Counted from the stretch's first letter, positions 2,404 through 32,634 are shown. The stretch: DNA of 32,670 nucleotides from a virus (IMGVR_UViG_3300032282_003876:1-32670); one strand, 5' to 3'. Notes: generated from the sequence alone by a model not told the origin. Numbers and translations are program-made.

Positions 2404-2411
2404 TATAAATA
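2404..2411 (+). promoter_or_regulatory. T4-type late promoter
   Basis: TATAAATA is an exact match to the T4 late promoter box recognised by gp55 with gp33/gp45. It lies just after the terminator and 28 bases before the ATG at 2440, so it should start the late transcript covering the head-protein genes. Confidence 0.8.
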
Positions 2412-2439: not shown

Positions 2440-3201
2440 ATGGCAATAAGTAGCAAGCAAATGAATGAATTTGCGCAGCGAGTTACAAATACCAAAACGG
2501 TATCTGCTTATAATTTTCTGGCTTCTGATTTTCAGACTCTTGATTACAAGGACGTCATCAGAGAATTATTTGAAATGCATATAGGTAAGATACAGTATTC
2601 AGATAGTATAAATTCTTCCACTGTGGCAAGTTTAAATAGACAGATAGACTCAATGAAATCTCGAGATACAACCGAGTTCTTTAAACTCTTTAACTTACTC
2701 AAAGAAAAAAGTATAGGTCCGGGAGAGATCCTATTGTTTCATTTAATTACTGACTTGAAACTAAGCACTACTGGTGCGCCATACGATGCTCAGAGCGGTA
2801 GCGACAAGATAGAGATGAAGTCAGTAAAGATAAGACAAAGCACAAACGACCTCTATGGATTTAAGCTTGGCTCTTCACAGGAGACCAAAGATACTCTTGG
2901 AGTAATGCTAGGTTTGATAGACATGGCAAGAGATAAAAAGATTATAGGTAAAACTGACAGAGACGTCTCTACAAACAAGTTAGCCGAATTAAAAAGAATT
3001 GATTCCAAAAAGTTTGAAAGCCTCAGAAAAACGTTTGCAAAAATTGTCGTGTCATATCTCAATGAAAAGACGCTTGTGTCTTTTAATAATCAAACCGGAA
3101 ATATACTTTTGCTAGGGGATAAGATCAAAGAATCAGACGTAGGATTTCATGAAATAACCCAGGGAACACTTAAGCCCACCATAAAATACGGAATAAGATA
3201 A
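2440..3201 (+). CDS. late protein of unknown function, possible PD-(D/E)XK nuclease fold
   Basis: This 253-residue protein is the first gene after a terminator and late promoter. I do not recognise a close family. Residues 90-130 hold GPGEILLFHL (Glu96), then Asp116 and Asp122, then EMK at 125-127, each followed by hydrophobic strands. This spacing (Glu, Asp, Glu-x-Lys) is that of PD-(D/E)XK nucleases, many of which act on DNA ends or as restriction enzymes. The C-terminal half is helical and lysine-rich, then ends in a small beta segment. The start lies 28 bases after the late promoter. The stop overlaps the next start. The nuclease idea is inference from the motif layout only. Confidence 0.75.
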   Translation: MAISSKQMNEFAQRVTNTKTVSAYNFLASDFQTLDYKDVIRELFEMHIGKIQYSDSINSSTVASLNRQIDSMKSRDTTEFFKLFNLLKEKSIGPGEILLFHLITDLKLSTTGAPYDAQSGSDKIEMKSVKIRQSTNDLYGFKLGSSQETKDTLGVMLGLIDMARDKKIIGKTDRDVSTNKLAELKRIDSKKFESLRKTFAKIVVSYLNEKTLVSFNNQTGNILLLGDKIKESDVGFHEITQGTLKPTIKYGIR

Positions 3202-3404
3202 TGATTGGATTTTCTCAATACTTAATTGAAAGTTTAGATATAGACAAATTGCGCCACCTTGAACATGCGGAAGATCATATCATTCATGATGGAGAAGAAA
3301 GTCTAAAACATGTTACTGATAATCTTCACGATCTTCATTCTTTTCTTACTGGTAGTAAGTCTAAATTAAAAATAATTAGGAATAATAAACATGCTATCAT
3401 TTAA
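3201..3404 (+). CDS. short capsid-targeted protein, possibly a truncated ligase-family paralogue
   Basis: The 67-residue product begins MIGFSQYLIES, which resembles the T4 capsid-targeting sequence (IPIII: MKTYQEFIAEA) with a possible prohead-protease site after LIE. The body, HLEHAEDHIIHDGEES, resembles the N-terminal domain of larger marine-phage proteins that continue into a lysine-x-Asp-Gly nucleotidyltransferase motif (from memory). Here the frame stops where that motif would come, so the gene may be a truncated paralogue of the ligase-like gene that follows. The start shares one base with the previous stop and the end overlaps the next gene by 14 bases. Confidence 0.65.
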   Translation: MIGFSQYLIESLDIDKLRHLEHAEDHIIHDGEESLKHVTDNLHDLHSFLTGSKSKLKIIRNNKHAII

Positions 3405-4338
3405 ACATTTTTTTATCTTGACTGAAGGTATTAGACAAGGTCTGCCTCATATTTCAACTATGGATCATGACCAGTTTAAGAATCTGATTGCAGATAAAAA
3501 AGTTCATATTGCTCATGCTACAGAAAAGACCGATGGTTCTACGCATGTATTTGGTCATGATCAACATGGATTTTATTCCCAAAGTTCTGGTTCAGGTAAT
3601 GAAAGAATGCGCTCTAGTAAAGATTATGAAGATAGAGCAATTAGACGTTCAAAAGAAACTGGTAAACCATTAGATTTAACAGCCGCTCATTCGTTTGGTC
3701 ATGTTCATGATATTCTTCAAAAAAATAAAAAATTACAAGATCATTTAAAGTCTGCTGCTGAAAAAGCTGGTGGTGAAACATCGGTTCGTGGTGAATTATT
3801 TCATAAAGGCTTAGCAAGACCATCAGATACAAAGCACGGTGAAGTCAAATTTGTAGGCACATCATATGATCCTTCTCATATGGGTCATGTAGGTAAAATA
3901 GTTATACATTCAAAATTACCTGAAAATCAGCAACATGACACTGAACATTTTAAACATAACTTATCAGATAAAAATATAAATTTTGATGATGATAAAATTG
4001 AGCATAAACCTGCGCATGTTGATGTAAGTGATGAGCATAAGGATTTTCATGCTCTAAATCATGAACTTCTTAAAGCTAGAACTACAAAACAAAATAAAGC
4101 AGATAAAGAAAATGAGCATGCTAAGTTTGATGCTATCAAACAACGAGTTTCTGCTAAAGTAGATCATCATGTTAGTAAAATGGGTATTTCTCCTAAATGG
4201 GGTTCAGGAACTGAAGGGCTTGTTGTGCATCCAAAGGAAGGTTCCAGTGCACCAAGATTTAAAGTAACATCAGCTGCATTTAGAGAATATAAAGCTGATC
4301 CTGAAAATAAAGAAAAATTTAAATTGAGGAACAAATAA
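3391..4338 (+). CDS. polynucleotide ligase-like nucleotidyltransferase with capsid-targeting N-terminus
   Basis: This 315-residue protein carries the signature motifs of ATP-dependent DNA/RNA ligases. Motif I is EKTDGS, with candidate AMP-accepting Lys46. RGELF at 133-137 is a motif III-like acidic site, EGLVV at 275-279 is motif IV, and RFKV at 289-292 is motif V. The N-terminus, MLSFKHFFILTEG, looks like a capsid-targeting peptide with a cleavage site after LTE. No C-terminal OB or RNA-ligase domain is evident, and the segment at 180-265 is rich in histidine, lysine and aspartate. The substrate (DNA, RNA, tRNA) cannot be told. It sits between two other proteins with similar N-termini, which suggests it is packaged in the head. 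Confidence 0.82.
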   Translation: MLSFKHFFILTEGIRQGLPHISTMDHDQFKNLIADKKVHIAHATEKTDGSTHVFGHDQHGFYSQSSGSGNERMRSSKDYEDRAIRRSKETGKPLDLTAAHSFGHVHDILQKNKKLQDHLKSAAEKAGGETSVRGELFHKGLARPSDTKHGEVKFVGTSYDPSHMGHVGKIVIHSKLPENQQHDTEHFKHNLSDKNINFDDDKIEHKPAHVDVSDEHKDFHALNHELLKARTTKQNKADKENEHAKFDAIKQRVSAKVDHHVSKMGISPKWGSGTEGLVVHPKEGSSAPRFKVTSAAFREYKADPENKEKFKLRNK

Positions 4339-4339
4339 T

Positions 4340-5818
4340 ATGCTCAGATTTATTGGATTTATTAGTCTTTTATCTGAAGGTGGCAATATCAAAGTAAAAA
4401 CAAGTGACGGGCATGAGGTATCAGCGGCACCATTTAAAATAAAGGATCGTGGTAAGCAAACAAAAGATATTCACGATGCTTTAAAATCTATACATGATTC
4501 ATACCATCAAGCTACTGGTTCTCATTTATTTGGTAAAAATACAAAAGCTCTTGAAACAGGTTCTGCTTTTGCAGGATCAACCAAACATTTAATGAATGGT
4601 CATATATCAGATCAAGAGTTTAAAAAACACAAACCATCCGTTGGTGATATTGATGCTCAAATACCAATGGAACATAAAGATGCATTAGCAAAACATTTAA
4701 AGGCTGGTGATAGACACGGATCGTATACTGTGGTTGGTGTTAAAAAGCATGGAACAGAAGCATCAGCAGTAATGAAACATGATAATGGTGAACATCATCA
4801 ATTTGACTTTGAAGGAACTCATTATGATGGTAATGAACCACATAAAAATGAAAGTTTTCTTCATAGTGCTGATTGGAATGATGCAAAAGCAGGAATTAGT
4901 GGTGCTCATCACAAAATATTATTAAATGCAGTTGGACTAGGAAAACACAAATTCTCCATTACTCATGGACTTAGATCAAGAACTGATGAAACTGATCCTG
5001 GTACAAAAGATCCTAAAGAAATATCAAAAAAATTATTTGGTAATCATGCAGATCATGATAGTATTCATTCATTTCAAGGTGTAACACATTTAATAAAAAA
5101 TCATATTCATCCTTCACAACATCAAGAAATATATAATAAGTTTAAAGAAGGTGTTGATAGACTTAAAAAAGATAATAGTGGTGCTTTAAATCATTTACGT
5201 AAGAATTTAAATGTAAGTGATTCTATTAAAGAATCTGTTGAAGAAACCCATCATACGTCTGTAATTCCAATGGTTGGTTTTAGTCCTATTTCACATATGG
5301 GGCATGCTCAAGATTTAGGCGGTGCATTAAAAAAATTACCTGGCACTAAACATGTTGGCATTAGTAAAAAAGCAGATGCATTTGAACCAGAAGAACGTAA
5401 ACATATTATGAATCGTCAATGGGGTGATGTTGGGCATACTACACATGTAGTTAGTGGTGCAGGTGAAACTATCAGACATGCATATGATTCACTACCAAAA
5501 CATGGTAAAAAAGTTCTTCATATTTTACTTGGTGGTGATAGACAAGAAATGGCTAAGGGTCTAAAAGACTCATTAGAATCTGGTAAAATTAAAGAAATGG
5601 AAGGACACAAGTTTGATTCCATTCATATTCATGCGCCGTCTGATTCTGATAGAAGTCATGGTATGAGCGGAACAAAAATGAGACAAGCTGCAGCTGACAA
5701 TAATGAATCAGAATTTCATAAACATATTGGACCAATGTTCTCCAAAAAAGAATCAAATGGTATAATGAATAAAGTAAAAAGCAGTTTAGAAAGTGGAAAA
5801 ATTAAAGTTAAAAGATAA
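4340..5818 (+). CDS. dual nucleotidyltransferase-like protein with capsid-targeting N-terminus
   Basis: This 492-residue protein appears to join two nucleotidyl-transfer domains. The N-terminal half has GSAFAG (74-79) and GDID (102-105), the layout of Pol-beta-type nucleotidyltransferases. The C-terminal domain (about 308-465) has GFSPISHMGH at 313-322, a HxGH motif, and MSGTKMRQA at 442-450, the second signature of the cytidylyltransferase/NMNAT family. The first 14 residues, ending LLSEG, resemble a T4 capsid-targeting peptide with a prohead-protease site. The protein is very rich in His, Lys and Asp. SLESGKIK occurs twice (411-418 and 482-489). Packaging and injection into the host is inference, and substrates are unknown. 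Confidence 0.8.
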   Translation: MLRFIGFISLLSEGGNIKVKTSDGHEVSAAPFKIKDRGKQTKDIHDALKSIHDSYHQATGSHLFGKNTKALETGSAFAGSTKHLMNGHISDQEFKKHKPSVGDIDAQIPMEHKDALAKHLKAGDRHGSYTVVGVKKHGTEASAVMKHDNGEHHQFDFEGTHYDGNEPHKNESFLHSADWNDAKAGISGAHHKILLNAVGLGKHKFSITHGLRSRTDETDPGTKDPKEISKKLFGNHADHDSIHSFQGVTHLIKNHIHPSQHQEIYNKFKEGVDRLKKDNSGALNHLRKNLNVSDSIKESVEETHHTSVIPMVGFSPISHMGHAQDLGGALKKLPGTKHVGISKKADAFEPEERKHIMNRQWGDVGHTTHVVSGAGETIRHAYDSLPKHGKKVLHILLGGDRQEMAKGLKDSLESGKIKEMEGHKFDSIHIHAPSDSDRSHGMSGTKMRQAAADNNESEFHKHIGPMFSKKESNGIMNKVKSSLESGKIKVKR

Positions 5819-5822
5819 AAAA

Positions 5823-6032
5823 ATGAAATATAAGCTTTTAAAATTCAGAACTTTTAATGAGGAAATGACTACAGCAGATGTAAGAGGTTTAGGATATGTT
5901 TCTGGGGCGCCAGCTGGTTCAATAAGTAACTATGCATCAGATAATATAGCATCAGCCGATACAATGAATGATGTATTAAAGAAATTTATAAACGTGTGGC
6001 ATAATAATCTACACAATAGGAAAACAAAATAA
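5823..6032 (+). CDS. small virion-associated protein with capsid-targeting-like N-terminus
   Basis: This gene encodes a 69-residue protein that starts MKYKLLKFRTFNEEM, again an aromatic-rich peptide ending in Glu-Glu. I chose the ATG at 5823 because an upstream in-frame start at 5793 would lie inside the previous gene and would hide this N-terminal pattern. The middle, DVRGLGYVSGAPAGS, is glycine-rich, and the tail, KKFINVWHNNLHNRK, is an amphipathic basic helix. It lies one base before a structural protein gene and is probably part of the same late transcript. The function is unknown. Confidence 0.65.
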   Translation: MKYKLLKFRTFNEEMTTADVRGLGYVSGAPAGSISNYASDNIASADTMNDVLKKFINVWHNNLHNRKTK

Positions 6033-6033
6033 T

Positions 6034-7347
6034 ATGGCACAGTTTCGTAAGGATACACATCAATTTTTACCAGCAGAAAAAACTTTATTTGAAGTAGTTA
6101 TGCTTGCTGATCAGTATGGTAGTCTAGTTGGTCCAGCAAATCCTTCTGGAGTTGCTGTCGATGCATTTGGTCGAGCAAGAATGTCGACACCATTAACACT
6201 ATTTGATTCTTCTCATCGTTATAAAGATAATGGTTTATGGTCTACATCTAATACAGCTGGTACTACATATGCTCATAATGCAAATGCTGGTATTATTGAA
6301 TTAACCTTACCTACAACTGCAAATGCTGAAATTGTTCGTGAGACATCAAAAGTTTTTTCTTATCAGCCAGGTAAATCTTTACAATCGTTGAATACATTCG
6401 TATTTAATACATCTAAAACAAATCTACGTCAACGTGTTGGATACTTTGGTGCTCAGAATGGTATTTACTTAGAACTTGACGGAACAACTCTCAATTTTGT
6501 TGAACGTTCATATGTAAGTGGAGCTGTTTCTGAAACACGTGTATCACAAGCAGATTGGAATATAGATACTCTATTAGGTGATGTTGCTTCAAGTCCCTCA
6601 CAAGTTACTTTAGATATTACAAAAGCTCAAATTATGTTTATTGATGTTGAATGGCTAGGGCTTGGTACTGTTAGATGTGGATTTGTTATTGATGGGAAGC
6701 TGATTCATTGTCATTCGTTCCATCATGCAAATAAAATTCAATCAACATATATGACAACAGCATCGCTTCCATTGCGCTATGAAATTAAAAATACAGGTGC
6801 AACTGCAAGTTCAAGCACTATGAAACAAGTGTGCTCTACTGTTATTAGTGAGGGTGGATATGAGCTTAGAGGTGAACAGAGATCTATCGGCACTCCAGTA
6901 CAAACACCAAAAAATTTAACAACGGCTGGTACTTACTACCCCATTGTTTCTATTCAGTTAAAATCAGCTTATCTTGATGCTATTGCTATCTTAACAGCAC
7001 TTTCAATATTAGGCATTAACTCTAACTCTTGCAGTGTTGCCTGGAGAGTTATAAGAGGTGCAACATTAACATCACCTTCTTGGACAGCCGGAAGTGCTGA
7101 TAGTGCTGTTGAATATGATACATCAGCTACAGGTTTGAGTGGAGGTAATGTATTGACACAAGGATATATTGGTATTACAAACCAAGCATCACAGACAATT
7201 GATGTGCTAAAAGAAGCATTATTCAAGTTTCAGCTACAAAGAAACAGTCTAACAAGTACACAAGAACCATTGACAATTGCTATGTCAGCTTCTGTTAATA
7301 CTGTTTCTTGTCTTGCTTCAATGGACTGGGAAGAGATTACTAGATAA
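6034..7347 (+). CDS. virion structural protein
   Basis: This 437-residue protein has the profile of a phage structural protein: rich in Ser, Thr, Ala and Asn, with alternating beta strands and few charged residues. The N-terminal part (VAVDAFGRARMSTPLTLFDSSHRY) matches a pattern I associate with structural proteins of marine T4-like phages. The middle (150-290) looks like a jelly-roll or lectin-like sandwich. There is no signal or membrane segment. It follows the head-targeted genes and precedes another late promoter. It could be a head-decoration, neck or tail-associated protein, and the sequence does not decide which. Confidence 0.8.
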   Translation: MAQFRKDTHQFLPAEKTLFEVVMLADQYGSLVGPANPSGVAVDAFGRARMSTPLTLFDSSHRYKDNGLWSTSNTAGTTYAHNANAGIIELTLPTTANAEIVRETSKVFSYQPGKSLQSLNTFVFNTSKTNLRQRVGYFGAQNGIYLELDGTTLNFVERSYVSGAVSETRVSQADWNIDTLLGDVASSPSQVTLDITKAQIMFIDVEWLGLGTVRCGFVIDGKLIHCHSFHHANKIQSTYMTTASLPLRYEIKNTGATASSSTMKQVCSTVISEGGYELRGEQRSIGTPVQTPKNLTTAGTYYPIVSIQLKSAYLDAIAILTALSILGINSNSCSVAWRVIRGATLTSPSWTAGSADSAVEYDTSATGLSGGNVLTQGYIGITNQASQTIDVLKEALFKFQLQRNSLTSTQEPLTIAMSASVNTVSCLASMDWEEITR

Positions 7348-7355
7348 TCTTTATT

Positions 7356-7363
7356 TATAAATA
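7356..7363 (+). promoter_or_regulatory. T4-type late promoter
   Basis: This is an exact TATAAATA box in the short gap after the structural gene, 20 bases upstream of the ATG at 7384. It would give the next group of virion genes its own late transcript. Confidence 0.8.
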
Positions 7364-7383
7364 TAGTAAAATTGGAGTGCTCC

Positions 7384-7974
7384 ATGTCTGATATACAAGA
7401 AAAAACTGGTTTATGGGATAACATTCATGCTAAGCGTGAACGTATTAAGCATGGTTCTGGTGAACGTATGCGTAAGCCTGGATCAAAAGGAGCACCTACT
7501 GCAGCAGATTTTAAATCAGCAAGCGAAGAAATAAAATACGAAAAACATACAACAGATCCTAAAAAATCATCATCTAGATTTGATGCTTCTAATGAACTTG
7601 TTAATATCTATAAAAATGATACACCAGGTCAATCAAAAACACTAAAAGTAATAAAAAAAGTGGTTGAAGAAGCACTATATGAATGTAATGGTAACTGCAC
7701 TTGCGGTAAGAAACCGCCTGTTACGGAAGCAGAATATCAAGGACGTAATGTACCGCTTGGTAAACCAATGAAGGGTGATGTAAAAAAGTCAAAAGTTTAC
7801 GTTAAGAATGAAAAAGGTAATGTAGTAAAAGTTAATTTTGGTGATAAGAACCTTAGCATTAAAAAAAATAATCCTGCTCGTAAACGTTCTTATTGTGCTC
7901 GTTCAAGTGGGCAAGGTAACCTAACCAAAAAAACTTCTGCTAATTATTGGTCTAGACGTGCTTGGAATTGTTAA
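7384..7974 (+). CDS. conserved marine T4-like phage protein, probably virion or prohead related
   Basis: The product is 196 residues. The ATG at 7384 has GGAG at 7374-7377 at the right distance, so it is preferred over an in-frame TTG at 7372. The N-terminal module GLWDNIHAKRERI, followed by GSGERMRKPGSKGAPT, is one I have seen in many T4-like marine phages. A CNGNCTCG cluster in the middle could bind metal. The C-terminus, with GDKNLSIKKNNPARKRSYC and a final YWSRRAWNC, matches a second widespread phage module, usually written SFRARH in relatives. It follows a late promoter, which points to a virion or assembly role. No enzymatic motif is visible. Confidence 0.75.
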   Translation: MSDIQEKTGLWDNIHAKRERIKHGSGERMRKPGSKGAPTAADFKSASEEIKYEKHTTDPKKSSSRFDASNELVNIYKNDTPGQSKTLKVIKKVVEEALYECNGNCTCGKKPPVTEAEYQGRNVPLGKPMKGDVKKSKVYVKNEKGNVVKVNFGDKNLSIKKNNPARKRSYCARSSGQGNLTKKTSANYWSRRAWNC

Positions 7975-7982
7975 AAACTATA

Positions 7983-8153
7983 ATGAAAAAGTTTAAAGAT
8001 TTTATAAAAGAACTTTCAGTACCACAAGGCACCACAGGCAAAAGAAAAGAAGTTTCTACTCCAATGGTTGCTATAAGAATGGCATCAGGTAAAATAGAAA
8101 AACATCCGCCAGGTAAAAGCGGTAGTTCTGGCGGTGGTGGTAATGGAAATTAA
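7983..8153 (+). CDS. 56-residue protein with capsid-targeting-like N-terminus and Gly tail
   Basis: The ATG at 7983 gives MKKFKDFIKELSVPQGTTGK, followed by a basic linker and a Gly/Ser-rich tail (SGSSGGGGNGN). An upstream TTG at 7962 would overlap the previous gene and is less likely. The first ten residues share the pattern of T4 internal proteins (MKTYQEFIAEA), although the residue after FIKE is Leu rather than Ala, Gly or Ser, so cleavage there is doubtful. It sits between a conserved late protein and Dps. Small size and late context suggest a packaged internal protein. Confidence 0.6.
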   Translation: MKKFKDFIKELSVPQGTTGKRKEVSTPMVAIRMASGKIEKHPPGKSGSSGGGGNGN

Positions 8154-8180: not shown

Positions 8181-8618
8181 ATGGAACAACTATTACAACA
8201 AATGAAGGTAGTGCTTGCAAGCACTTTTGCCTTTTATCTCAAGGCTCATAACTTTCATTGGAATGTTGAAGGACCTGATTTTGCACAATATCATGAATTT
8301 CTTGGCAATTTATATGAAGAAGCATTTGGTGCTGTAGATCCTATTGCTGAGCATATTAGAGCACTTAATTCATATGCTCCAGGTAGTTTAACCAGATTTG
8401 CACAACTTTCAGTTATTGATGATCAGATTAATATTCCAAATGCTTTAAAAATGATTAAAGAATTGGAAATGGATAATAATAAATTGAAAGATGAACTTAC
8501 TAAAGCTTATAAACTAGCAGAAACAGCGAATGAAGCTGGTTTATCTAACTTTTTACAAGATCGTATTGATATCCATGCCAAGCACGGTTGGATGTTAAGA
8601 TCTATTGGTAAAGTTTAA
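8181..8618 (+). CDS. dps: Dps-family ferritin (DNA-protecting ferroxidase)
   Basis: Dps proteins form 12-subunit shells that oxidise and store iron, and many bind DNA. This 145-residue protein has the Dps helix with AHNFHWNVEG and all ferroxidase ligands at exact family spacing: His26, His38, Asp53 and Glu57 correspond to E. coli Dps His51, His63, Asp78 and Glu82. Its C-terminal helix ends HAKHGWMLRSIGKV. It lacks a long lysine-rich DNA-binding tail. It lies among late virion-type genes, so it may protect phage DNA or be carried in the particle, although expression in the host to limit oxidative damage is equally possible. Confidence 0.9.
   Translation: MEQLLQQMKVVLASTFAFYLKAHNFHWNVEGPDFAQYHEFLGNLYEEAFGAVDPIAEHIRALNSYAPGSLTRFAQLSVIDDQINIPNALKMIKELEMDNNKLKDELTKAYKLAETANEAGLSNFLQDRIDIHAKHGWMLRSIGKV
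8210..8225. repeat. 16-bp perfect palindrome inside dps
   Basis: AGTGCTTG and CAAGCACT meet without a spacer, ten codons into dps, and are followed by TTTT. It could form a small hairpin with weak attenuation or be an operator-like site. It also codes for protein (VVLAST), so it may be coincidental. Confidence 0.5.
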
Positions 8619-10227: not shown

Positions 10228-10235
10228 TATAAATA
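10228..10235 (+). promoter_or_regulatory. T4-type late promoter
   Basis: This is an exact TATAAATA box three bases after the scaffold-like gene and 34 bases before the ATG at 10270. The next gene also has a strong AAGGAG ribosome site, as expected for an abundant virion protein. Confidence 0.8.
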
Positions 10236-12353: not shown

Positions 12354-13379
12354 ATGCATTGGTTGGAACAAAAGTATATTGGTTTACTATCCAATAGACT
12401 AAGGAATTACCGAAGGAAATCATCAGGTTTATATAATTTCTCCTGTCCTATTTGTCTTGATTCTGATAAGGATCGGACTAAGGCTAGAGGATATATGTAT
12501 TCAAAACAAGGTAAAACTTTATATCATTGTCATAATTGTACCGTGACAATGGGATTTGAAAAATTCTTTAAAACTATTGATGAAGCACTGTATCGTGAAT
12601 ATACACTTGAAAAACTAAAAGATTCAAAGACACCACAGTTGGTTGAACTTGAAGAGTTTGTCAACAAGATGAAGAAACCAGTATTCATGTTGACAGAACC
12701 ATTCAAAGGTTTGAAAAAAGTAAGTCAACTAGATCCAGATGATTCTGTTAAAGTATTAGTATCATCACGCAAAATTCCAAATCCATATCACAGTAAGATG
12801 TTTAAATGTCCTAAGTTCTTTTCTTGGGTCAATGCATTAGTGCCTGATAAATTTGATGAAGCATCATTAAAATATGATGAAACTCGACTTCTCATTCCTT
12901 TTTTAACTAAGGATAAGAAGATGCATGCTTTTCAGGGTAGGTCTCTTGATCCTAAGTCTAAAACAAAATATATCACTATTGTTCTGGATGAAACTGTTCC
13001 TAAAGTCTATGGTTTGGATCAACTCGATGAAACTAAAAAGATTTACGTAACAGAAGGTCCACTAGATTCTATGTTTCTACCTAATGCAATTGCAACTGCA
13101 GGCGGTGATTTGACTTCGGCTGTTGTTGACTTCCCTAAAGATAAGATGATTATCGTTTATGACAACGAGCCGAGAAGTAAAGATACCAAGAATAAGATTG
13201 ACAAAGCCATTATTAATGGATATAATGTCTGTATATGGCCTTCCAATCTAGAACATAAAGATATCAATGACTGTATCAAGGCAGGTCTAAGTCCTGAATT
13301 TGTGCAGCATATCATTGATACTAATACTCATAGAGACTTGAGAGCTAAAATGGCTCTAAATGCCTGGACTAAAGTTTGA
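12354..13379 (+). CDS. 61: DNA primase, T4 gp61 type
   Basis: This enzyme makes RNA primers on the lagging strand in complex with the gp41 helicase. Its 341 residues match the gp61 length. An N-terminal zinc-binding module has CPIC (31-34) and CHNC (59-62). A TOPRIM-type catalytic region follows, with VTEGPLDS (Glu234) and IVYDNEPRS (Asp270, Glu272). Start choice: the ATG at 12354 gives the MHWLE N-terminus I know from marine relatives, but its closest ribosome site (AAGGA near 12333) is about 17 bases away. A short overlapping ORF (ATG at 12340, 20 codons) sits nearer to it. Transcription probably starts at the sigma70 promoter just upstream. Confidence 0.92.
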   Translation: MHWLEQKYIGLLSNRLRNYRRKSSGLYNFSCPICLDSDKDRTKARGYMYSKQGKTLYHCHNCTVTMGFEKFFKTIDEALYREYTLEKLKDSKTPQLVELEEFVNKMKKPVFMLTEPFKGLKKVSQLDPDDSVKVLVSSRKIPNPYHSKMFKCPKFFSWVNALVPDKFDEASLKYDETRLLIPFLTKDKKMHAFQGRSLDPKSKTKYITIVLDETVPKVYGLDQLDETKKIYVTEGPLDSMFLPNAIATAGGDLTSAVVDFPKDKMIIVYDNEPRSKDTKNKIDKAIINGYNVCIWPSNLEHKDINDCIKAGLSPEFVQHIIDTNTHRDLRAKMALNAWTKV

Positions 13380-21515: not shown

Positions 21516-21932
21516 ATGAATGAAGTAATTGGGTTTACCTGTGGTGCATTTGACTTATTGCACCCAGGACACATACACTTTCTAAATGAGTGTAGTAAAC
21601 ATTGTGAGGAATTAATTGTAGGTTTACATTCTAATCCACAACTAGATCGAGATTGGAAGAATAAACCTATTCAAAGTATGTATGAACGATATGTTCAACT
21701 TGATGGGCTAAGATTTATAGATCAAATTATTCCATACGATACAGAATATGATCTATTAAATATGATGGGTACATTAACTATCAATAAACGATTTGTCGGA
21801 ACCGAGTATAAAGATCAAGAACTTACGGGTCAACATATTTGTGATCTATTAAATATTGAAATCATATATATTCCAAGATATCATCAATATAGTTCAACAG
21901 AACTAAGAAATAGACTTAAAGGTATTACATAA
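21516..21932 (+). CDS. cytidylyltransferase-like nucleotidyltransferase
   Basis: This 138-residue protein of the TagD/HldE-C family transfers a nucleotide to a sugar phosphate. GFTCGAFDLLHPGHIHFL holds the HxGH motif (His16, His19) and YSSTELRNRL is the closing SSTxLR motif. Its size matches a single-domain enzyme. In the operon of heptose genes, the most likely substrate is a heptose 1-phosphate (as HldE C-domain or HddC make ADP- or GDP-heptose), but glycerol-3-phosphate or another polyol is possible. Its stop overlaps the methyltransferase start. Confidence 0.85.
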   Translation: MNEVIGFTCGAFDLLHPGHIHFLNECSKHCEELIVGLHSNPQLDRDWKNKPIQSMYERYVQLDGLRFIDQIIPYDTEYDLLNMMGTLTINKRFVGTEYKDQELTGQHICDLLNIEIIYIPRYHQYSSTELRNRLKGIT

Positions 21933-22627
21933 TGGGCATTATTAGATTTAGTGACGAAGAAGTATTCAGCACTGATAGTCAAGAATATGATATTCTGCAA
22001 CGTGCAGTACTACAATGCAAAGGTGTTCCAGGTGCTGTAGTTGAAATTGGGACTCGCCGTGGTGGTTCAGCCAAAATTATTATTGATAGCTTAGCTATGA
22101 ATCAAGATACAGATCGTTCAATGTTCTGTATTGATCCATACGGTAATATTGAAATTGAATGCACCAATATGAATATCACTCATCATGTGCCAGGCGTAGC
22201 TACTGAGGGTGATCCAATGTCAAAAGAGATTACCAAACCGCTTAGGTTTGATTATGATAATAGCATGCGAAATCGAATCATTCCTTCACTTTATTATTAT
22301 GCTTATAATAAAGGACTAAATTTTGCATTCTTCTGCATGGAAGATTCAGAGTTCTTTAATCGGTTTGCAGATGGAGTTCCGGTATATAATAATTTCAAGA
22401 AGTATGAAAATACTTATGCGTTTGTATTCTTTGATGGACCACATCATAATGAAGCAGTGGATCTTGAAACAAAATTCTTTCTAGATCGTTCAACTATTGG
22501 TACCGTATTTGTTGCAGATGATATCTGGATGTATGATCATGAGCGATTTGAAACCATGATTTATGCGCAAGGTTTTAAAGTCCTTGAAAAAGGGCAAGTA
22601 AAAGCTTCATATGTAAAGGTTTCATAA
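21932..22627 (+). CDS. class I SAM-dependent methyltransferase
   Basis: This 231-residue protein has the glycine-rich motif I VVEIGTRRGGSAKIIIDS (about 36-53), an acidic motif (FCIDPYG), and VFFDGPHHNEAVDLE, which resembles the TylF/macrocin-O-methyltransferase group. It lies between the nucleotidyltransferase and the GmhA-like isomerase with TAATG couplings on both sides, so it is probably part of the same pathway. O-methylation of the phage-made sugar is the simplest reading; O-methylation of lipid or DNA-linked sugar is possible. Confidence 0.8.
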   Translation: MGIIRFSDEEVFSTDSQEYDILQRAVLQCKGVPGAVVEIGTRRGGSAKIIIDSLAMNQDTDRSMFCIDPYGNIEIECTNMNITHHVPGVATEGDPMSKEITKPLRFDYDNSMRNRIIPSLYYYAYNKGLNFAFFCMEDSEFFNRFADGVPVYNNFKKYENTYAFVFFDGPHHNEAVDLETKFFLDRSTIGTVFVADDIWMYDHERFETMIYAQGFKVLEKGQVKASYVKVS

Positions 22628-23211
22628 TGTCATTTATTGAACATTATCTTAGTGAAGTAACTTTTACAACCAATAGTCTTTCAAGTGAAGATATTGAAAC
22701 AATTGTAAATTATCTAAAACAAGTAAGAGATAATGATGGTCGAGTCTTTGTTTTAGGTGTTGGTGGTTCGGCTGCAAATGCCTCACATATGGTAAATGAT
22801 CTACGAAAACTATGTGATATTGAAGCATATAGTCCAGTTGATAATGTATCAGAACTTACGGCTCGAGTAAATGATGAAGGATGGGAATATTTCTTTGAGC
22901 GTTGGCTCAAAACATCAAAGTTAACTGAATTTGATTGTATCTTTGTATTATCAGTAGGTGGTGGTAGTCAAGAACGAAATATTTCAGTTAATCTGATTAG
23001 AGCAATTGATCTAGCACATGATGTTGGTGCAGCAGTTGTAAGTATTGTTGGTAAACCTGATGGTTATGCAGCATTACATAGTGATGCATGTTGTGTCATT
23101 CCTGTATCAGATCAGACATTATTAACGCCAATTAGCGAAGCATTTCAAGCAATTGTTTGGCATGGTATTGTTTCTCATCCTGAACTTCAGCTAGCAAAGA
23201 CAACGTGGTAA
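22627..23211 (+). CDS. gmhA: phosphoheptose isomerase-like SIS protein
   Basis: GmhA converts sedoheptulose 7-phosphate to D-glycero-D-manno-heptose 7-phosphate. This 194-residue protein carries the SIS domain: VLGVGGSAANASHMVNDLRK (from residue 42), VLSVGGGSQERN near 114-125, the Thr/Glu element TPISEAFQAIVWH (about 172-184), and DNVSELTARVND in the middle, all typical of GmhA. The start overlaps the previous stop by one base and its end overlaps the GmhB gene by seven bases. Context and sequence agree on the heptose pathway. Confidence 0.85.
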   Translation: MSFIEHYLSEVTFTTNSLSSEDIETIVNYLKQVRDNDGRVFVLGVGGSAANASHMVNDLRKLCDIEAYSPVDNVSELTARVNDEGWEYFFERWLKTSKLTEFDCIFVLSVGGGSQERNISVNLIRAIDLAHDVGAAVVSIVGKPDGYAALHSDACCVIPVSDQTLLTPISEAFQAIVWHGIVSHPELQLAKTTW

Positions 23212-23732
23212 AGACAGTATTTCTAGATAGGGATGGAGTTATTAATCATCTTGTCAATCATAATGGCAAGATGACTGCTCCCTGGAAAGTTGAAGAATTT
23301 ATATTCATGTCTGGTGCTGTTCAATGTATTCGTAGATTCAAGAATTTTGGCAAAAGAGTAATAGTAATTACCAATCAACCAGACGTTCTTGATGGTAAAA
23401 TGACTCGTGAAACATTTGACATATTCAAAGATATGTTATATTATCTAAAGGTTGATGATGTATTCTGTGCAGAGCAGCGTGGAACAGAATTCTATAAACC
23501 AAATAATGGTATGCTCGAGCACTATATACAAAAATACGAGTTAAATAGAAATCATTGTGTATTGATTGGTGACACCTGGAAAGATATTGTAGCTGGGTAT
23601 AAAAGTAATATCACAACAATATATAGTTCATATGAGACATATACATCTCCTAAGGAATGGTCTCATATAAAACCGGCTCATACTGTAAAAAATATAACAG
23701 AAGCAACTAAATTAATTGAGGATATATTATGA
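23205..23732 (+). CDS. gmhB: HAD phosphatase, heptose-bisphosphate phosphatase-like
   Basis: GmhB removes the 7-phosphate from heptose 1,7-bisphosphate. The 175-residue protein starts at a GTG that overlaps the previous stop and begins MVKTVFLDRDGVIN, with the HAD nucleophile Asp8 and acid Asp10. ITNQPDVLDG supplies the motif II Thr, FYKPNNGML the motif III Lys, and LIGDTWKDI the motif IV acidic pair. Bacterial GmhB binds zinc through cysteines; here only scattered cysteines are visible and no clear CxH cluster, so zinc may be absent. Confidence 0.83.
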   Translation: MVKTVFLDRDGVINHLVNHNGKMTAPWKVEEFIFMSGAVQCIRRFKNFGKRVIVITNQPDVLDGKMTRETFDIFKDMLYYLKVDDVFCAEQRGTEFYKPNNGMLEHYIQKYELNRNHCVLIGDTWKDIVAGYKSNITTIYSSYETYTSPKEWSHIKPAHTVKNITEATKLIEDIL

Positions 23733-24472
23733 TTGATATCTATGCAGACGGCGCAGCAATGGATGGTATCGTTGAAGCATCAAAAAATAATAAGATCAAA
23801 GGATTTACAACAAATCCATCACTCATGAAAGCAGCAGGCATTAAAGATTATATGGGGTTTTGTGATAATGTTATTGCGTATTTAAAAGAATATCGACCAG
23901 ACACCAATATTAGTCTGGAAGTATTCTCGGATGATGAAACTGAAATGCTTGAACAAGCACTGAAGTTAAATCAAGTCGGACTCAATCATGATTATCCAGT
24001 CTATGTAAAGATTCCTGTTACATATACAAATGGTGAATTTACTATTAATGTTATTCAAAAGTTGCTTGAAAAGAATGTAAGAGTAAATGTTACAGCCGTC
24101 TTTACTCCATATCAAACAATGCATGTACTTGATGCTATTGGAACAAGTAAAGTACCAAGTATTATTTCAATTTTTGCTGGTAGAATTGCCGATGCTGGTA
24201 AAAATGCAGGATTGATTGTTTCAGAATGTGTAAAACTAAATAAGTTTCTTACGTCTGGTCTATCACGAAATCCTAATATTAAGTTTCTTTGGGCATCTAC
24301 ACGACAAGTTTATAACTATGTTGAAGCACAACTAGCAGGTTGTCATGTTATTACAATGACACCAGATGTTATTAAAAAATTATCTAATCTTGATAAAAAT
24401 TTGACCGAGTATTCACTTGAGACAGTCAAGATGTTTAGAGATGATGCCATTAAGTCAGGATATACAATCTAA
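23729..24472 (+). CDS. tal: transaldolase (TalC-type)
   Basis: This 247-residue enzyme moves a dihydroxyacetone unit, and can form sedoheptulose 7-phosphate. It has GFTTNPSLM (25-33), the Schiff-base lysine in YVKIP (Lys94), VTAVFTPYQTM, and SIFAGRIADAG, all of the transaldolase/fructose-6-phosphate aldolase family. Related cyanophage genes are usually linked to host carbon metabolism. Here the gene is set between GmhB and a glycosyltransferase with ATGA/TAATG overlaps, which suggests it supplies the S7P substrate for the heptose enzymes. Confidence 0.9.
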   Translation: MIDIYADGAAMDGIVEASKNNKIKGFTTNPSLMKAAGIKDYMGFCDNVIAYLKEYRPDTNISLEVFSDDETEMLEQALKLNQVGLNHDYPVYVKIPVTYTNGEFTINVIQKLLEKNVRVNVTAVFTPYQTMHVLDAIGTSKVPSIISIFAGRIADAGKNAGLIVSECVKLNKFLTSGLSRNPNIKFLWASTRQVYNYVEAQLAGCHVITMTPDVIKKLSNLDKNLTEYSLETVKMFRDDAIKSGYTI

Positions 24473-25464
24473 TGAGTATGTTTGAAGAAAATGAAGTTTC
24501 AAAGAATGCCTTTGGTGGTACTGAACTAGCAAAGAGAAAACTAGCAGCCATTCTTGATCCAAGTCTACTAAATGACTTTCAGGTAGTTTGTTCCAGACCA
24601 AGAGACTTGGATGAATCAAAGATTAGAATTTTCTTTGCCAACGACCTGGCTACCGATCCAGAGTCTGCCAAGTTTCGTGAAGAATCATTCCGAGATAAAT
24701 TTCATAAGTTTGTCTTTATTTCTAATTGGCAAATGAGCCAATATCAACTAGTACATGGTATTCCATATGATACCAAGAGTATTGTACTAGAATCTGGTAT
24801 TGATATTGCACCCGAGACTGTCAAAAGTAAGGATAAAATTCGTCTGGTCTATACATCAACACCACAACGTGGTCTTGATATTCTTGTTCCAGTCTTTAAA
24901 CATCTAGCAGAAAAATATCCCGATATTCATCTTGATGTATTTTCTAGTTTCAAGATTTATGGTTGGGATGATGCCGATAAGCAATTTGAACCATTATATG
25001 ATGAAATCCGTAATCATCCACAAATGACTTATCACGGCTTTGTGCCTAATGATACACTTCGTTCAACATTAAATGATTGTCATATCTTTGCTTATCCATC
25101 TACATGGGTTGAGACTAGTTGCCGAGCAATGCTAGAAGCAATGACTGCTGGTCTAGTTTGTGTGCATCCAAATCTTGGTGCATTGCCAGATACATCTGGT
25201 TCACTCAATGTAATGTATCAAGGCTCAATGGATAAAAATGAACATGCTAATATCTTTAATGCTCATTTAGAAGCAGCAATTAATTTTGTTAAGAATGATG
25301 CACATGTAAGTATGGTTCAATTTAATAAGACTTATATTGATAGTCGGTTTGGTATTGATAGAATCAAGCGACAATGGGAAACGATGCTCAAGGATCTACT
25401 TAATAGATACCCTACAGAAGAGAGTCGTAGTTTTCCCAAACAACAATTTGTATATCGTACATGA
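24472..25464 (+). CDS. GT4-like glycosyltransferase
   Basis: This 330-residue GT-B-type enzyme has TPQRGLDILVPVFKHLAEKY and FVPNDTLRSTLNDC in its C-terminal nucleotide-sugar domain, and ETSCRAMLEAMTAGLVCVHP, which gives the Glu-x7-Glu motif of GT4 enzymes. The N-terminal Gly-rich acceptor loop (NAFGGTELAKRKL) is present. No membrane segment is seen. It probably transfers the activated sugar made by the neighbouring enzymes; the acceptor (LPS, a protein or DNA) is unknown. The ends overlap both neighbours. Confidence 0.85.
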   Translation: MSMFEENEVSKNAFGGTELAKRKLAAILDPSLLNDFQVVCSRPRDLDESKIRIFFANDLATDPESAKFREESFRDKFHKFVFISNWQMSQYQLVHGIPYDTKSIVLESGIDIAPETVKSKDKIRLVYTSTPQRGLDILVPVFKHLAEKYPDIHLDVFSSFKIYGWDDADKQFEPLYDEIRNHPQMTYHGFVPNDTLRSTLNDCHIFAYPSTWVETSCRAMLEAMTAGLVCVHPNLGALPDTSGSLNVMYQGSMDKNEHANIFNAHLEAAINFVKNDAHVSMVQFNKTYIDSRFGIDRIKRQWETMLKDLLNRYPTEESRSFPKQQFVYRT

Positions 25465-26444
25465 TTATTTCTAAAACCCCATTAAGAATTAGTTTCTTTT
25501 CTGGTGGCAGTGACTTACCGGCTTTCTATAGGAGAGCCGAGGGTGCTGCCCTTTCAGTTACTATTGACAAATACATATATGTTATGGCTCATAGTAAATC
25601 ACGAGGTAACTATGTAACTGCATTTGATGGTATTAATGATTATGATACATTGGACTCAATGACCCATGATATTACTCGTGAAACATTAAAAGAATATAGA
25701 ATCAAGAATAAAGTCCATGTAGCATCTATTTCAGATATCCCAGGTAAAGGCTCTGGTCTTGGTAGTTCTTCATCGTTTACAGTTGGTTTAATTAATGCTT
25801 TAAAAGAATGTTATGAACCAGTTTCATTGGCAGAACAAGCTTGTAATATTGAAATGAATCGTTGTGAATATCCAGTTGGTAAACAAGATCAATATGCTGC
25901 AGCAGTTGGTGGTCTAAATTTATTCAAGTTTTCAAGTGATCGTGTTGCATCATCACTCTTAAATATCTCTAAAGAGACTATCGCTAAACTACATGATAAT
26001 TTACTATTAGTTTATACAGGTATTTCACGATCTGCCAATAAAATTCTATCAGAACAATCTAAGTCTATGACTGATGATGATAAATTCAATCTTGTCATGA
26101 ATGGTCGTAATAAGGCTATCTTTGCCGCAGACTTACTAGAGCGTGGTGATCTAGATACATTTGGTGATTTGTTACATCAAGCATGGTTAGATAAAAAGAA
26201 TGTGGCATCTGGCATTACTAGTGAAGCAATTGATCACATTTATGATGTAGCTATGTTAAATGGTGCTCTTGGTGGTAAGATTTTAGGTGCTGGTGGTGGC
26301 GGTTTTATGATCTTCTACTGTGAATCTAATAAGAAAGAAGAATTATCTTCTATTCTAGGTAAAAAAACTAGAGCTGTTACATATGATTTTAACTTTACAA
26401 GAGAAGGATCAAAAGTTGTATATGCAGATGAGATCCTATCATAA
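25461..26444 (+). CDS. hddA: GHMP kinase, heptose 7-phosphate kinase-like (HddA)
   Basis: This 327-residue GHMP kinase begins MIISKTPLRISFFSGGSDLP, the typical start of HddA-type sugar kinases. IPGKGSGLGSSSSFTVGLIN (94-113) is the ATP loop, YPVGKQDQYAAAVGG gives the Asp and substrate loop, and KILGAGGGGFMIFY is motif 3. HddA adds the 1-phosphate to D-glycero-D-manno-heptose 7-phosphate. With GmhA, GmhB, transaldolase and a nucleotidyltransferase encoded just upstream, the family call is well supported. The stop precedes a strong promoter. Confidence 0.88.
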   Translation: MIISKTPLRISFFSGGSDLPAFYRRAEGAALSVTIDKYIYVMAHSKSRGNYVTAFDGINDYDTLDSMTHDITRETLKEYRIKNKVHVASISDIPGKGSGLGSSSSFTVGLINALKECYEPVSLAEQACNIEMNRCEYPVGKQDQYAAAVGGLNLFKFSSDRVASSLLNISKETIAKLHDNLLLVYTGISRSANKILSEQSKSMTDDDKFNLVMNGRNKAIFAADLLERGDLDTFGDLLHQAWLDKKNVASGITSEAIDHIYDVAMLNGALGGKILGAGGGGFMIFYCESNKKEELSSILGKKTRAVTYDFNFTREGSKVVYADEILS

Positions 26445-30053: not shown

Positions 30054-30842
30054 ATGTTAAATAATAAATATAGAAGCATTTTTATCAGTGATATACACCT
30101 TGGTAGTAGAGCATGTCAGGCAGATTTATTAACACAATTTTTAAAAGTAAATACTTGTCAAAATTTATATTTGGTAGGTGATATATTTGATTTATGGAAA
30201 CTTAAAGATAGTAGATATTGGCCACAATCCCATAGTAATGTAATAAGAAGATTTCTTACTTCATCTAAAAGAGGTACAAAAATATACTATATCTTAGGCA
30301 ATCATGATGAATATTTTAGGACCTGGATATCAGATATGAATATATTTGGAAATATAATTGTGGCAAATAGTTTTGATCATTACACAGTTAATAACCAAAG
30401 ATTCCTTGTTACACATGGGGACATGTTTGATGGTATTGTTCGACATCATAAATGGTTAAGTCATTTGGGTGATAAAGCACATACATTTGTGTTATGGTTA
30501 AACACCGGTTTAAATAATTTACGCCGAATACTTGGTAAAGATTATTGGAGTTTTAGTAGTTTTTTAAAAACAAATACTAAACAAGCAATGGCGTTTATAA
30601 TAAATTATGAATATAATTTAATAAAATATGCTCGAGATGAAGCATATCATGGTGTAATATGTGGTCATATACATACTCCAACAATAAAGATTGATGAAGA
30701 TGGATTTGTATATTTTAATACAGGTGATTGGTGTGAGACTATTAGCGCTTTAGTTGAAAATCATGATGGTACATGGGAATTATTAGTATGGGATACTAAT
30801 ATTAATGATATGAAGGTAACATCAACATGGGGCATCAAATGA
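30054..30842 (+). CDS. plcP: metallophosphoesterase, PlcP/LpxH-like phospholipase candidate
   Basis: This 262-residue enzyme has a complete calcineurin-type metal site: SDIHLG (Asp13, His15), LVGDIFD (Asp43), LGNHDE (Asn83, His84), VTHGDMFD (His121) and ICGHIHTP (His205, His207). The strands YWPQSH and KYARDEAYHGVICGH match the PlcP subset of the LpxH superfamily, which in marine alphaproteobacteria removes phosphate headgroups from phospholipids, better than E. coli LpxH, from memory. The next gene, a GT4 glycosyltransferase, completes the PlcP-Agt arrangement. UDP-diacylglucosamine hydrolysis (true LpxH) is the alternative. There is no membrane segment, which fits a peripheral enzyme. Confidence 0.85.
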   Translation: MLNNKYRSIFISDIHLGSRACQADLLTQFLKVNTCQNLYLVGDIFDLWKLKDSRYWPQSHSNVIRRFLTSSKRGTKIYYILGNHDEYFRTWISDMNIFGNIIVANSFDHYTVNNQRFLVTHGDMFDGIVRHHKWLSHLGDKAHTFVLWLNTGLNNLRRILGKDYWSFSSFLKTNTKQAMAFIINYEYNLIKYARDEAYHGVICGHIHTPTIKIDEDGFVYFNTGDWCETISALVENHDGTWELLVWDTNINDMKVTSTWGIK

Positions 30843-31834
30843 GATTGATTATAATAGATGATAATATGCCAAATCAGGTAAATGGTGTAGTAACAACTTT
30901 CAATTATCTTAAAAATGAATTATTTTCACGTGACAATATAAATGTAAATCACATTACACCTTATCAATTTTATAATATACCTGCTATGGTTTATCCTGGA
31001 GCAAGACTACCTATTAATTTATGGAAACTTGAAAATTATATAAAATCATATAATCCAACACACTTACATATTTGCACAGAAGGTTTGCTTGGACTAACTG
31101 CCAGATCCATATTCAGGAAACATGGATGGAATTATACAACGAGTTCTCACACTCGTTGGGATGAATACTTGGCAAAAACACTAAAAATAAAGCCAAATAT
31201 TGGTATGAAATATATGAAATGGTTTCATAAATATAGCTATTCAGTATTGGTAAATACAAAATCTATTGCAACTGAATTAGAATTAAAAGGGTGGAAAAAT
31301 TTAAAAATATGGACCCGTGGTACTGATAAAGATCTTTTTTCCTTCAATGATCATACACTAACTGATAAACCTACACTTCTAACAGTTGGTAGAATCAGTA
31401 AGGAAAAAAATATAGATGCTTTTTGCAACTTATCAAAAACAAACCAATATAAGTTAATATGTGTAGGTGATGGACCAGAATTAAATCGACTGAGAAAACA
31501 ATATCCTGATGTTATTTTTTTAGGTGAATTAAAAGGAAAAGAACTAGCGGAACAGTATAAAATGGCTGATTGTTTTGTCTTTACTAGTATTACCGATACA
31601 TTTGGTATGGTTATGATTGAAAGTATGTCAACAGGTACACCAATAGCAGCTTATCCAGTTCAAGCACCTAAGGATATTATAGAGCAGGGTATTACCGGAT
31701 TTTTACATAATGATCTTAATATTGCTATTGATAATTGTTTATCTATACCAAGAAAAACAGTACATGATGGTAGTAAAAAATGGTGTTGGAAAAAAACCAC
31801 AGATATATTTTTAAATTCATTAATAGAAAAATAA
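30839..31834 (+). CDS. agt: GT4 glycosyltransferase, Agt/SqdX-like glycolipid synthase candidate
   Basis: This 331-residue GT-B enzyme starts at the ATG overlapping the plcP stop (ATGA). An in-frame ATG at 30827 lies upstream. NQVNGVVTTFNYL, HICTEGLLGLTARSIFRKHG and TSSHTRWDEY are typical of GT4 enzymes that act on diacylglycerol (Agt, SqdX). The nucleotide-sugar half has LLTVGRISKEKNIDAF, VGDGPELNRL and the Glu-x7-Glu type block DTFGMVMIESMSTGTPIAAY. With PlcP this would make glucosyl- or glucuronosyl-diacylglycerol. A role in LPS or teichoic-type glycosylation is the alternative. Confidence 0.85.
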   Translation: MRLIIIDDNMPNQVNGVVTTFNYLKNELFSRDNINVNHITPYQFYNIPAMVYPGARLPINLWKLENYIKSYNPTHLHICTEGLLGLTARSIFRKHGWNYTTSSHTRWDEYLAKTLKIKPNIGMKYMKWFHKYSYSVLVNTKSIATELELKGWKNLKIWTRGTDKDLFSFNDHTLTDKPTLLTVGRISKEKNIDAFCNLSKTNQYKLICVGDGPELNRLRKQYPDVIFLGELKGKELAEQYKMADCFVFTSITDTFGMVMIESMSTGTPIAAYPVQAPKDIIEQGITGFLHNDLNIAIDNCLSIPRKTVHDGSKKWCWKKTTDIFLNSLIEK

Positions 31835-32287: not shown

Positions 32288-32453
32288 GACTTTTATAAAA
32301 AACTTCAAGTTTTATAAGCGTCACATATTCATTTATATTTTGATATGTATGAGTTGTAATTATATTCTGATATTTTGCATTTACAAGCTTATCAACTTGT
32401 CTGGAACACTCTATACTGGGTTTAAATTTTAGAGTTTTAATTATTGATTTCAT
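32274..32453 (-). CDS. 59-residue hypothetical protein on - strand
   Basis: This ORF (MKSIIKTLKFKPSIECSRQV and so on, ending FYKSHEEN) lies between the repeat-protein gene and the 31-residue ORF, with its start 17 bases inside the end of the repeat gene. It fills what would otherwise be a gap. It has a mixed alpha/beta look and one cysteine. No family or strong ribosome site is seen. Confidence 0.45.
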   Translation of the reverse strand: MKSIIKTLKFKPSIECSRQVDKLVNAKYQNIITTHTYQNINEYVTLIKLEVFYKSHEEN

Positions 32454-32634
32454 TTGTGCTCATATCTACTATTGCTTCTGAGCTTTTATTGACTTGTTGC
32501 CAGACTTGATCCAAGACTTGATCCAAGACTTGAATCCTGACTTGATCCCAGACTTGATTCTCGACTTGAATCCTGACTTGATCCCAGACTTGACTATAGA
32601 CTTGATACTTGACTTGAGTCCTGGCTTGCTTCAT
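32437..32634 (-). CDS. tetrapeptide (x-Q-V-x) repeat protein
   Basis: This 65-residue protein begins MKQARTQVKYQVYSQVWDQV and continues with Gln-Val every four residues for about 12 units, then a short acidic tail (DMSTNEINN). AAGGA lies eight bases before the ATG, a good ribosome site. The regular hydrophobic-polar pattern suggests an amphipathic helix or a repeat solenoid. Each unit is 12 bp with invariant CAA-GTC codons. An upstream similar ORF overlaps the start by four bases, so it is one of at least two repeat genes. No family is recognised. Confidence 0.7.
   Translation of the reverse strand: MKQARTQVKYQVYSQVWDQVRIQVENQVWDQVRIQVLDQVLDQVWQQVNKSSEAIVDMSTNEINN
32491..32628. repeat. 12-bp tandem repeat, 12 units (11 exact GACTTG cores)
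   Basis: On the + strand GACTTG recurs at 32491, 32503, 32515 and every 12 bases to 32611, with a GGCTTG variant at 32623. The six spacer bases vary. On the - strand this is CAAGTC in frame, giving Gln-Val. Further copies at 32652 and 32664 are in a different phase. Confidence 0.92.

Follow-up and report, generated by a model that had tools for sequence, protein, structure and literature searches.

We analysed a stretch of virus DNA of 32,670 nt, IMGVR_UViG_3300032282_003876:1-32670 (one strand, 5' to 3'; hereafter the window), which is a 32.7-kb fragment of the genome of a T4-like phage. Between a DnaB-like helicase gene at 666 (the gp41 side) and a DNA primase gene at 12354 (the gp61 side) lies a gene cassette, which includes five plus-strand genes, A to E, that begin with similar short leader peptides. 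The initial annotation had likened these five N-termini to that of the T4 internal protein IPIII, quoted as MKTYQEFIAEA, and IPIII does read MKTYQEFIAE↓A in NC_000866 (here and below, ↓ marks the predicted cut, or the joint between leader and body). All five were found at the genes named, with the start of gene E refined to the ATG at 7983, 21 nt downstream of the TTG given by the open reading frame tool. Gene A (3201..3404, 67 residues) carries the tag MIGFSQYLIE↓S (3201..3230), followed by ~50 residues from the start of DUF6267 (T4-GC71), after which the frame ends prematurely. Gene B (3391..4338, 315 residues) carries MLSFKHFFILTE↓G (3391..3426) ahead of a KxDG nucleotidyltransferase with a putative RNA-ligase-like fold. 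In gene C (4340..5818, 492 residues), the last residue of the tag MLRFIGFISLLSE↓GGN (4340..4378) abuts the conserved GGN of a Pol-beta-like nucleotidyltransferase (GS...GDIDxxI...DF) that continues into a C-terminal HIGH-type adenylyltransferase. Gene D (5823..6032, 69 residues) has a degenerate leader, MKYKLLKFRTFNEE↓M, while its homologues have canonical ones (MKNFKSWLAE↓T, MKTFKAWLSE↓D, MKTFCQWIKE↓S). Gene E (7983..8153, 56 residues) consists of the tag MKKFKDFIKE↓L and a small Gly/Ser-ending protein, and its homologues are also tagged (MKTLKQFMSE↓I, MKTFAEFKEE↓L).

Entry of IPIII into the head depends on its residues 4 and 7 and its processing on residues 8 and 10, and the T4 prohead protease gp21 cleaves after L/I-x-E (PMC9026906). 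The leaders of A (F4, Y7, L8, E10) and E keep exactly this register, with an aromatic residue at 4 and 7, L or I at 8 and E at 10. Those of B and C also have aromatic residues at 4 and 7, with an insert of 2-3 residues ahead of LTE or LSE. Four of the five leaders (3201, 3391, 4340 and 7983) thus share the aromatic pair, which D lacks, and their ends read LIE↓S in A, LTE↓G in B, LSE↓G in C and IKE↓L in E.

A relaxed version of this motif occurs in four of the 14 cassette genes and in none of the 35 window genes outside the cassette. When residues 2-31 were shuffled with composition kept, 0.04 cassette genes were expected to match, and none of 1000 shuffles reached four. The same locus holds homologues of the window families in the cyanophages S-SM1 and P-SSM4, the pelagiphage HTVC008M, the Methylophilales phage Melnitz and S-CRM01, and the motif is enriched there in Melnitz (3/13 genes), P-SSM4 (3/12) and S-CRM01 (2/11). 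S-SM1 has no match among 72 genes elsewhere (within the 49 kb read), and at the locus its T4-GC190 protein begins MKKFSAFLNE↓A. Other tags at the locus are MLSFKAYLAE↓K in P-SSM4, MQGFKTFLSE↓A and MINFSKYITE↓D in Melnitz, and MISFDQFLSE↓K and MKLFNQFFKE↓A in S-CRM01. Regular expressions are not fully specific, since T4 has look-alikes of its own, gene e for the relaxed motif and 57B for the aromatic-pair motif. A SIS isomerase at 22627 (MSFIEHYLSE) was likewise rejected as a look-alike, being a metabolic enzyme outside the cassette.

We also took 36 environmental leaders with E at residue 10, none of them from T4, S-SM1 or the window, derived a position profile and scored 184 proteins with it. 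Among 52 T4 proteins, IPIII ranked first (10.9) and IPI second (9.4), with the next protein at 0.8; among 83 S-SM1 proteins, GC190 ranked first at 14.3, with the next at 2.9. The leading window proteins were E, A, C and B, and E had the highest score of all 184 proteins, although this ranking is not independent because relatives of the window families are in the training set.

Comparison of homologues shows where the leader ends and the body begins. The gene C family comprises 24 lineages under 80% identical, and in 21 of them a Glu stands directly before GG(N/D), with L or I at -3 in 20 and V in one (for example MLRFKSFITE, MKTFKGYILE, MKSFKFFLNE, MLRFKDYLKE and MITFKEFLIRE). The other three (IMG/VR loci L096, L099 and L107) begin M↓GGN, with no leader at all, as do the annotated starts of the homologues in Vibrio Va1 and Xanthomonas X1. 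The gene B family behaves similarly: in 12 of its 14 sequences a leader ending in Glu directly precedes the conserved start (MFTLKQFILTE↓GIRQG, MKSFRQFIVE↓SVRQG, MLSFTQYLSE↓ASIRQG), another has a leader plus a longer linker, and L055 is untagged, starting at the body. The DUF6267 body begins HLEHxED, and among its 53 lineages a leader with (L/I/V)xE precedes it in 23, while 11 start at the body with only a few residues and two show some other arrangement. Kinase-like proteins share a single joint behind differing leaders (MIPFILKE↓GLYDP, MKFKEFLLQE↓GVYDP, MKKTLDSVRQYINE↓GVYDP). The leader is thus separable, with homologues beginning exactly at the body (M↓GGN, M-KNT-HLEH, M-ADILRKG). In the structure models of B and C, the leaders have a predicted local distance difference test score (pLDDT) below 50 (residues 1-16 in B), and the bodies fold well.

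The same joints are found inside a fusion protein. In one relative (L036/L058), B, C and further domains are united in a single frame of 2202 residues (L036:6001-12606, contig 3300032318_000487), which contains the B and C families, an HELVHH metalloprotease-like stretch, a zeta/PNK-type kinase and DUF6321. The sequence (L/I)xE↓G stands at two joints of this frame: SLLRE↓GGN between B and C, and YDLNE↓GINDP before the P-loop kinase, where it aligns with the separate tagged kinase of HTVC008M (MIPFILKE↓GLYDP). The fusion is possibly a polyprotein processed in the prohead.

The gp21 protease is encoded by related phages. All eight related records with PF07068 (gp23) also have PF03420 (gp21), which was found in none without it, and in most of the gp23 proteins of those relatives the N-terminal part contains (L/I)xE followed by T, S or G (e.g. 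TLNE↓T, ALHE↓T, ALFE↓T and INE↓G). One tagged cassette protein has been seen in particles; mass spectrometry of S-SM1 virions detected the T4-GC190 cytidyltransferase (PMC3037559). The cassette also carries signs of late expression. The T4-type late promoter motif TATAAATA lies on the plus strand at 2404..2411, 7356..7363 and 10228..10235, that is, 36, 28 and 42 nt before the genes at 2440, 7384 and 10270. It occurs in three of five cassette gaps and in none of nine other gaps (three gaps were reached in 6 of 5000 shuffles). Over the whole window it is not above chance (4 vs 6.1 expected), and only its placing in cassette gaps is unusual. The motif also stands ahead of the cassette in L004, Melnitz, L146 and L155. 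The gene at 2440 is the first of this late-promoter cassette; its product (2440-3201, 253 residues) has no family match, and its SGSDKIEMKSV stretch resembles a PD-(D/E)xK nuclease core.

The bodies behind the leaders have features of enzymes acting on nucleic acid ends. Across 14 homologues of gene B, E45-K46-T47-D48-G49, E275-G276-x-V278 and K291 are invariant, corresponding to motif I (KxDG), motif IV (EGxV) and the lysine of motif V. Its model has a mean pLDDT of 86.7, and the closest solved folds, at modest scores, are those of RNA ligases, including the Naegleria enzyme and T4 Rnl1 and Rnl2. Gene B, which has no close relatives in annotated phages, thus resembles an RNA-ligase-like covalent nucleotidyltransferase, a fold assignment weaker than that of the C-terminal half of gene C. 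In gene C (mean pLDDT 88.2), G79-S80, G102-D103-x-D105 and D156 of the N-terminal half are invariant among 19 homologues and match the GS, DxD and third Asp of Pol-beta; the fold search with this half was barely informative. The C-terminal half has the motifs ISHMGHA (HxGH) and SGTKMR ((S)xTxxR), and its predicted fold matches PPAT (Z 12.5, root-mean-square deviation (rmsd) 3.0 over 150) and NMNAT (Z 11.6). By motif and predicted fold, gene C resembles a Pol-beta nucleotidyltransferase joined to a HIGH-superfamily adenylyltransferase.

Gene A matches PF19782 (DUF6267) at 8.8e-5 and 22.5 bits, below the cut-off of 27 and over only ~41 N-terminal positions, and alignment with seven DUF6267 proteins shows it as a truncated relative. 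It is probably a remnant of a DUF6267 gene, and resembles one from which the ligase-like part has been lost. In the relative L003, where gene B is 94% identical, nothing matching gene A was found. Searches of PDB sequences with the B, C and DUF6267 profiles gave no credible match, and PADLOC returned for B and C only weak matches, which we dismissed as meaningless.

Also present in relatives are a kinase of the PNK/zeta type and a HAD protein that resembles polynucleotide kinase phosphatase. In jumbo phages, the Pol-beta nucleotidyltransferase RlaP accompanies RNA ligases and is predicted to put back bases lost from RNA ends (PMC7824862). Given this precedent and the set of ligase-like protein, Pol-beta nucleotidyltransferase, kinase and phosphatase, we favour RNA repair as the role of the cargo, while DNA end repair or NAD-type chemistry is also possible.

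Several observations weigh against a capsid-targeting function for these leaders, or against the enzymatic roles suggested for their cargo. The initial annotation held that at least three leaders end in (L/I)xE before a small residue; this is borne out by A, B and C, where G or S follows, and fails for E, which has Leu rather than a small residue at P1', and for D, whose window copy lacks (L/I)xE. Neither gp21 nor gp23 is encoded on the window fragment, so the co-occurrence with the protease rests on relatives. The detection of GC190 concerns S-SM1, a phage other than that of the window, and the protein was reported as present in virions rather than as cleaved (PMC3037559). Many cyanophage DUF6267 proteins have no leader, and a clade of 17 of the 53 DUF6267 lineages begins MFSFKGF(x)TK..., keeping the aromatic pair without (L/I)xE; cleavage is therefore not universal, and these proteins may be targeted without being trimmed. 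(This clade comprises L143-L179, and in L146, one of these genomes, tags of the normal kind stand on other genes.) As for the cargo, the top 35 VIA-align entries for gene B are all RNA or DNA ligases, but at a Z of 9.0 that is near the tool's noise level (rmsd 3.8 over 183), and its Foldseek match to ligases is weak (E 8.9e-3). Profile comparison of DUF6267 with gene B left homology unsupported beyond the KxDG region, so a ligase reading of DUF6267 stays at the level of motifs. The wider proposal of a T4-type tag on unrelated cargo is qualified by D, by E and by the lack of the protease gene on the window fragment, and is otherwise upheld by the joints with their cut rule, the low-confidence leaders ahead of well-folded bodies, the profile, the homologue in S-SM1 virions and the late-promoter motifs.

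Other explanations account for part of these data. Chance, or an N-terminal composition in which AT-rich starts yield F, K and I, might explain the isolated look-alikes in T4 e, T4 57B and the isomerase at 22627, but we consider it scarcely credible, given the gap between shuffled and observed counts in the cassette, and it is already contradicted by homologous bodies that have either a leader or nothing at the joint. The leaders could instead be amphipathic anchors or docking peptides for a membrane, the replication complex or a scaffold, with no relation to gp21. This would suit both the MFSFKGF clade and the imperfect sites of D and E, yet it seems improbable when Glu occupies the exact joint in 21/21 tagged gene C lineages, (L/I)xE↓G is retained at internal fusion joints, the profile recovers T4 IPIII and IPI, and a tagged cassette protein is found in S-SM1 virions. 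A stronger contender, though still an unlikely one, accepts that the leaders bring proteins into the prohead core, perhaps to be trimmed there, and has them act in head assembly or on packaged DNA (as scaffold or in nick sealing) rather than as injected effectors. T4 core proteins too have gp21 sites and IPIII affects head morphogenesis (PMC9026906), and a virion structural protein gene (phrog_1645, 6034..7347, plus strand) lies within the cassette. However, the cargo varies among phages and is enzyme-like, with active-site motifs intact, and leaderless bodies exist, all of which fit poorly with a fixed scaffold role.

We conclude, from sequence comparison, that these unrelated cargo proteins very probably share a capsid-targeting leader of the T4 type. 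Genes A to E would then lie in a late-expressed cassette of head cargo, each family bearing a short IPIII-type leader at its N-terminus. The aromatic residues at 4 and 7 would dock the protein on the prohead core, gp21 would cleave after (L/I)xE as the head matures, and the mature enzyme would remain beside the DNA inside the head. The leader would serve as a module, such that the same body can be tagged, untagged or fused to the next protein via a cut site. The cargo would be mainly enzymes that join and modify nucleic acid ends, complemented in relatives by the kinase and HAD phosphatase, and these may arrive in the host alongside the viral genome to repair RNA or DNA that the host's defences have cut. 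More tentatively, it is plausible that aquatic T4-like phages of very common kinds pack their heads in advance with end-healing and end-joining enzymes, as a modular set that is released by the protease and is sometimes made as a polyprotein, and that this set mends RNA or DNA breaks inflicted by the host from injection on. This proposal covers marine cyanophages, pelagiphages, methylophages and freshwater relatives, and ligase, Pol-beta nucleotidyltransferase, adenylyltransferase, kinase and phosphatase activities; if true, DUF6267 would be one of the head-delivered enzymes.

The closest known counterparts are the T4 internal proteins IPI, IPII and IPIII with their capsid-targeting sequence (CTS), which likewise have a leader of ~10 residues with aromatics at 4 and 7, an (L/I)xE end, diverse bodies and gp21 (here in relatives). 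They are small and basic (IPI inhibits a restriction enzyme), whereas the larger bodies here are predicted multi-domain enzymes, and the present leaders vary in length and in some cases lie inside fusion proteins. T4 Alt, an ADP-ribosyltransferase with gp21-cut propeptides (PMC9026906), is also a head-packaged enzyme, but of a different class, and no homology to it was seen, none having been looked for. Cyanophage T4-GC190 and T4-GC71 (DUF6267, phrog_455) occupy the same gp41 to gp61 locus and have homologous bodies; GC190 is tagged, while GC71 is mostly untagged in marine cyanophages, in contrast to the tagged but truncated copy in the window. We found no description of a CTS on GC190 or GC71 in the literature searched. 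Phage RNA-repair sets (T4 Pnkp with Rnl1/Rnl2; jumbo-phage RlaP with RNA ligase, PMC7824862) are similar in bringing into one neighbourhood a ligase-like protein and a Pol-beta nucleotidyltransferase, with a kinase and a 3'-phosphatase-like protein in relatives, but no head-entry leader has been described for them, whereas here leaders and late-promoter motifs are present. An N-terminal signal also takes the P1 antirestriction protein DarB into the head (PMC9024508), although the Dar proteins have no consensus in common and their signal is not of the (L/I)xE type. The leader type is thus already known; what we did not find in the literature searched is its broad use on the enzyme cargo of aquatic phages, together with its presence or absence at fixed joints and its place in fusions.

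These results widen the range of the T4 capsid-targeting leader, from a handful of internal proteins of coliphages to a large set of phages from aquatic habitats. They provide a rule by which head entry and the position of the cut can be predicted from the sequence of hypothetical proteins. They also suggest a delivery route and probable enzyme classes for widespread orphan families (DUF6267/phrog_455 and the gene B and C families). Should the cargo be injected, antidefence repair would begin ahead of all phage gene expression.

Some other genes of the window deserve mention. Within the head-cargo cassette, 8181-8618 encodes an untagged Dps/ferritin-like protein (PF00210, phrog_3636). Beyond the primase gene, apparent ribonucleotide reductase genes follow from 14417, by our own reading of the sequence. 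A cluster at 21516-26444, which encodes a cytidylyltransferase-like protein, the SIS isomerase, a HAD phosphatase, a transaldolase, a glycosyltransferase and a GHMP kinase, resembles a phage-borne heptose-nucleotide pathway. At 30054-31834, a calcineurin-like phosphoesterase adjoins a group 1 glycosyltransferase, possibly for modification of the host envelope. Finally, the minus strand at 32437-32634 contains a strongly periodic frame of 65 residues built of WDQVRIQV/LDQVLDQV repeat units.

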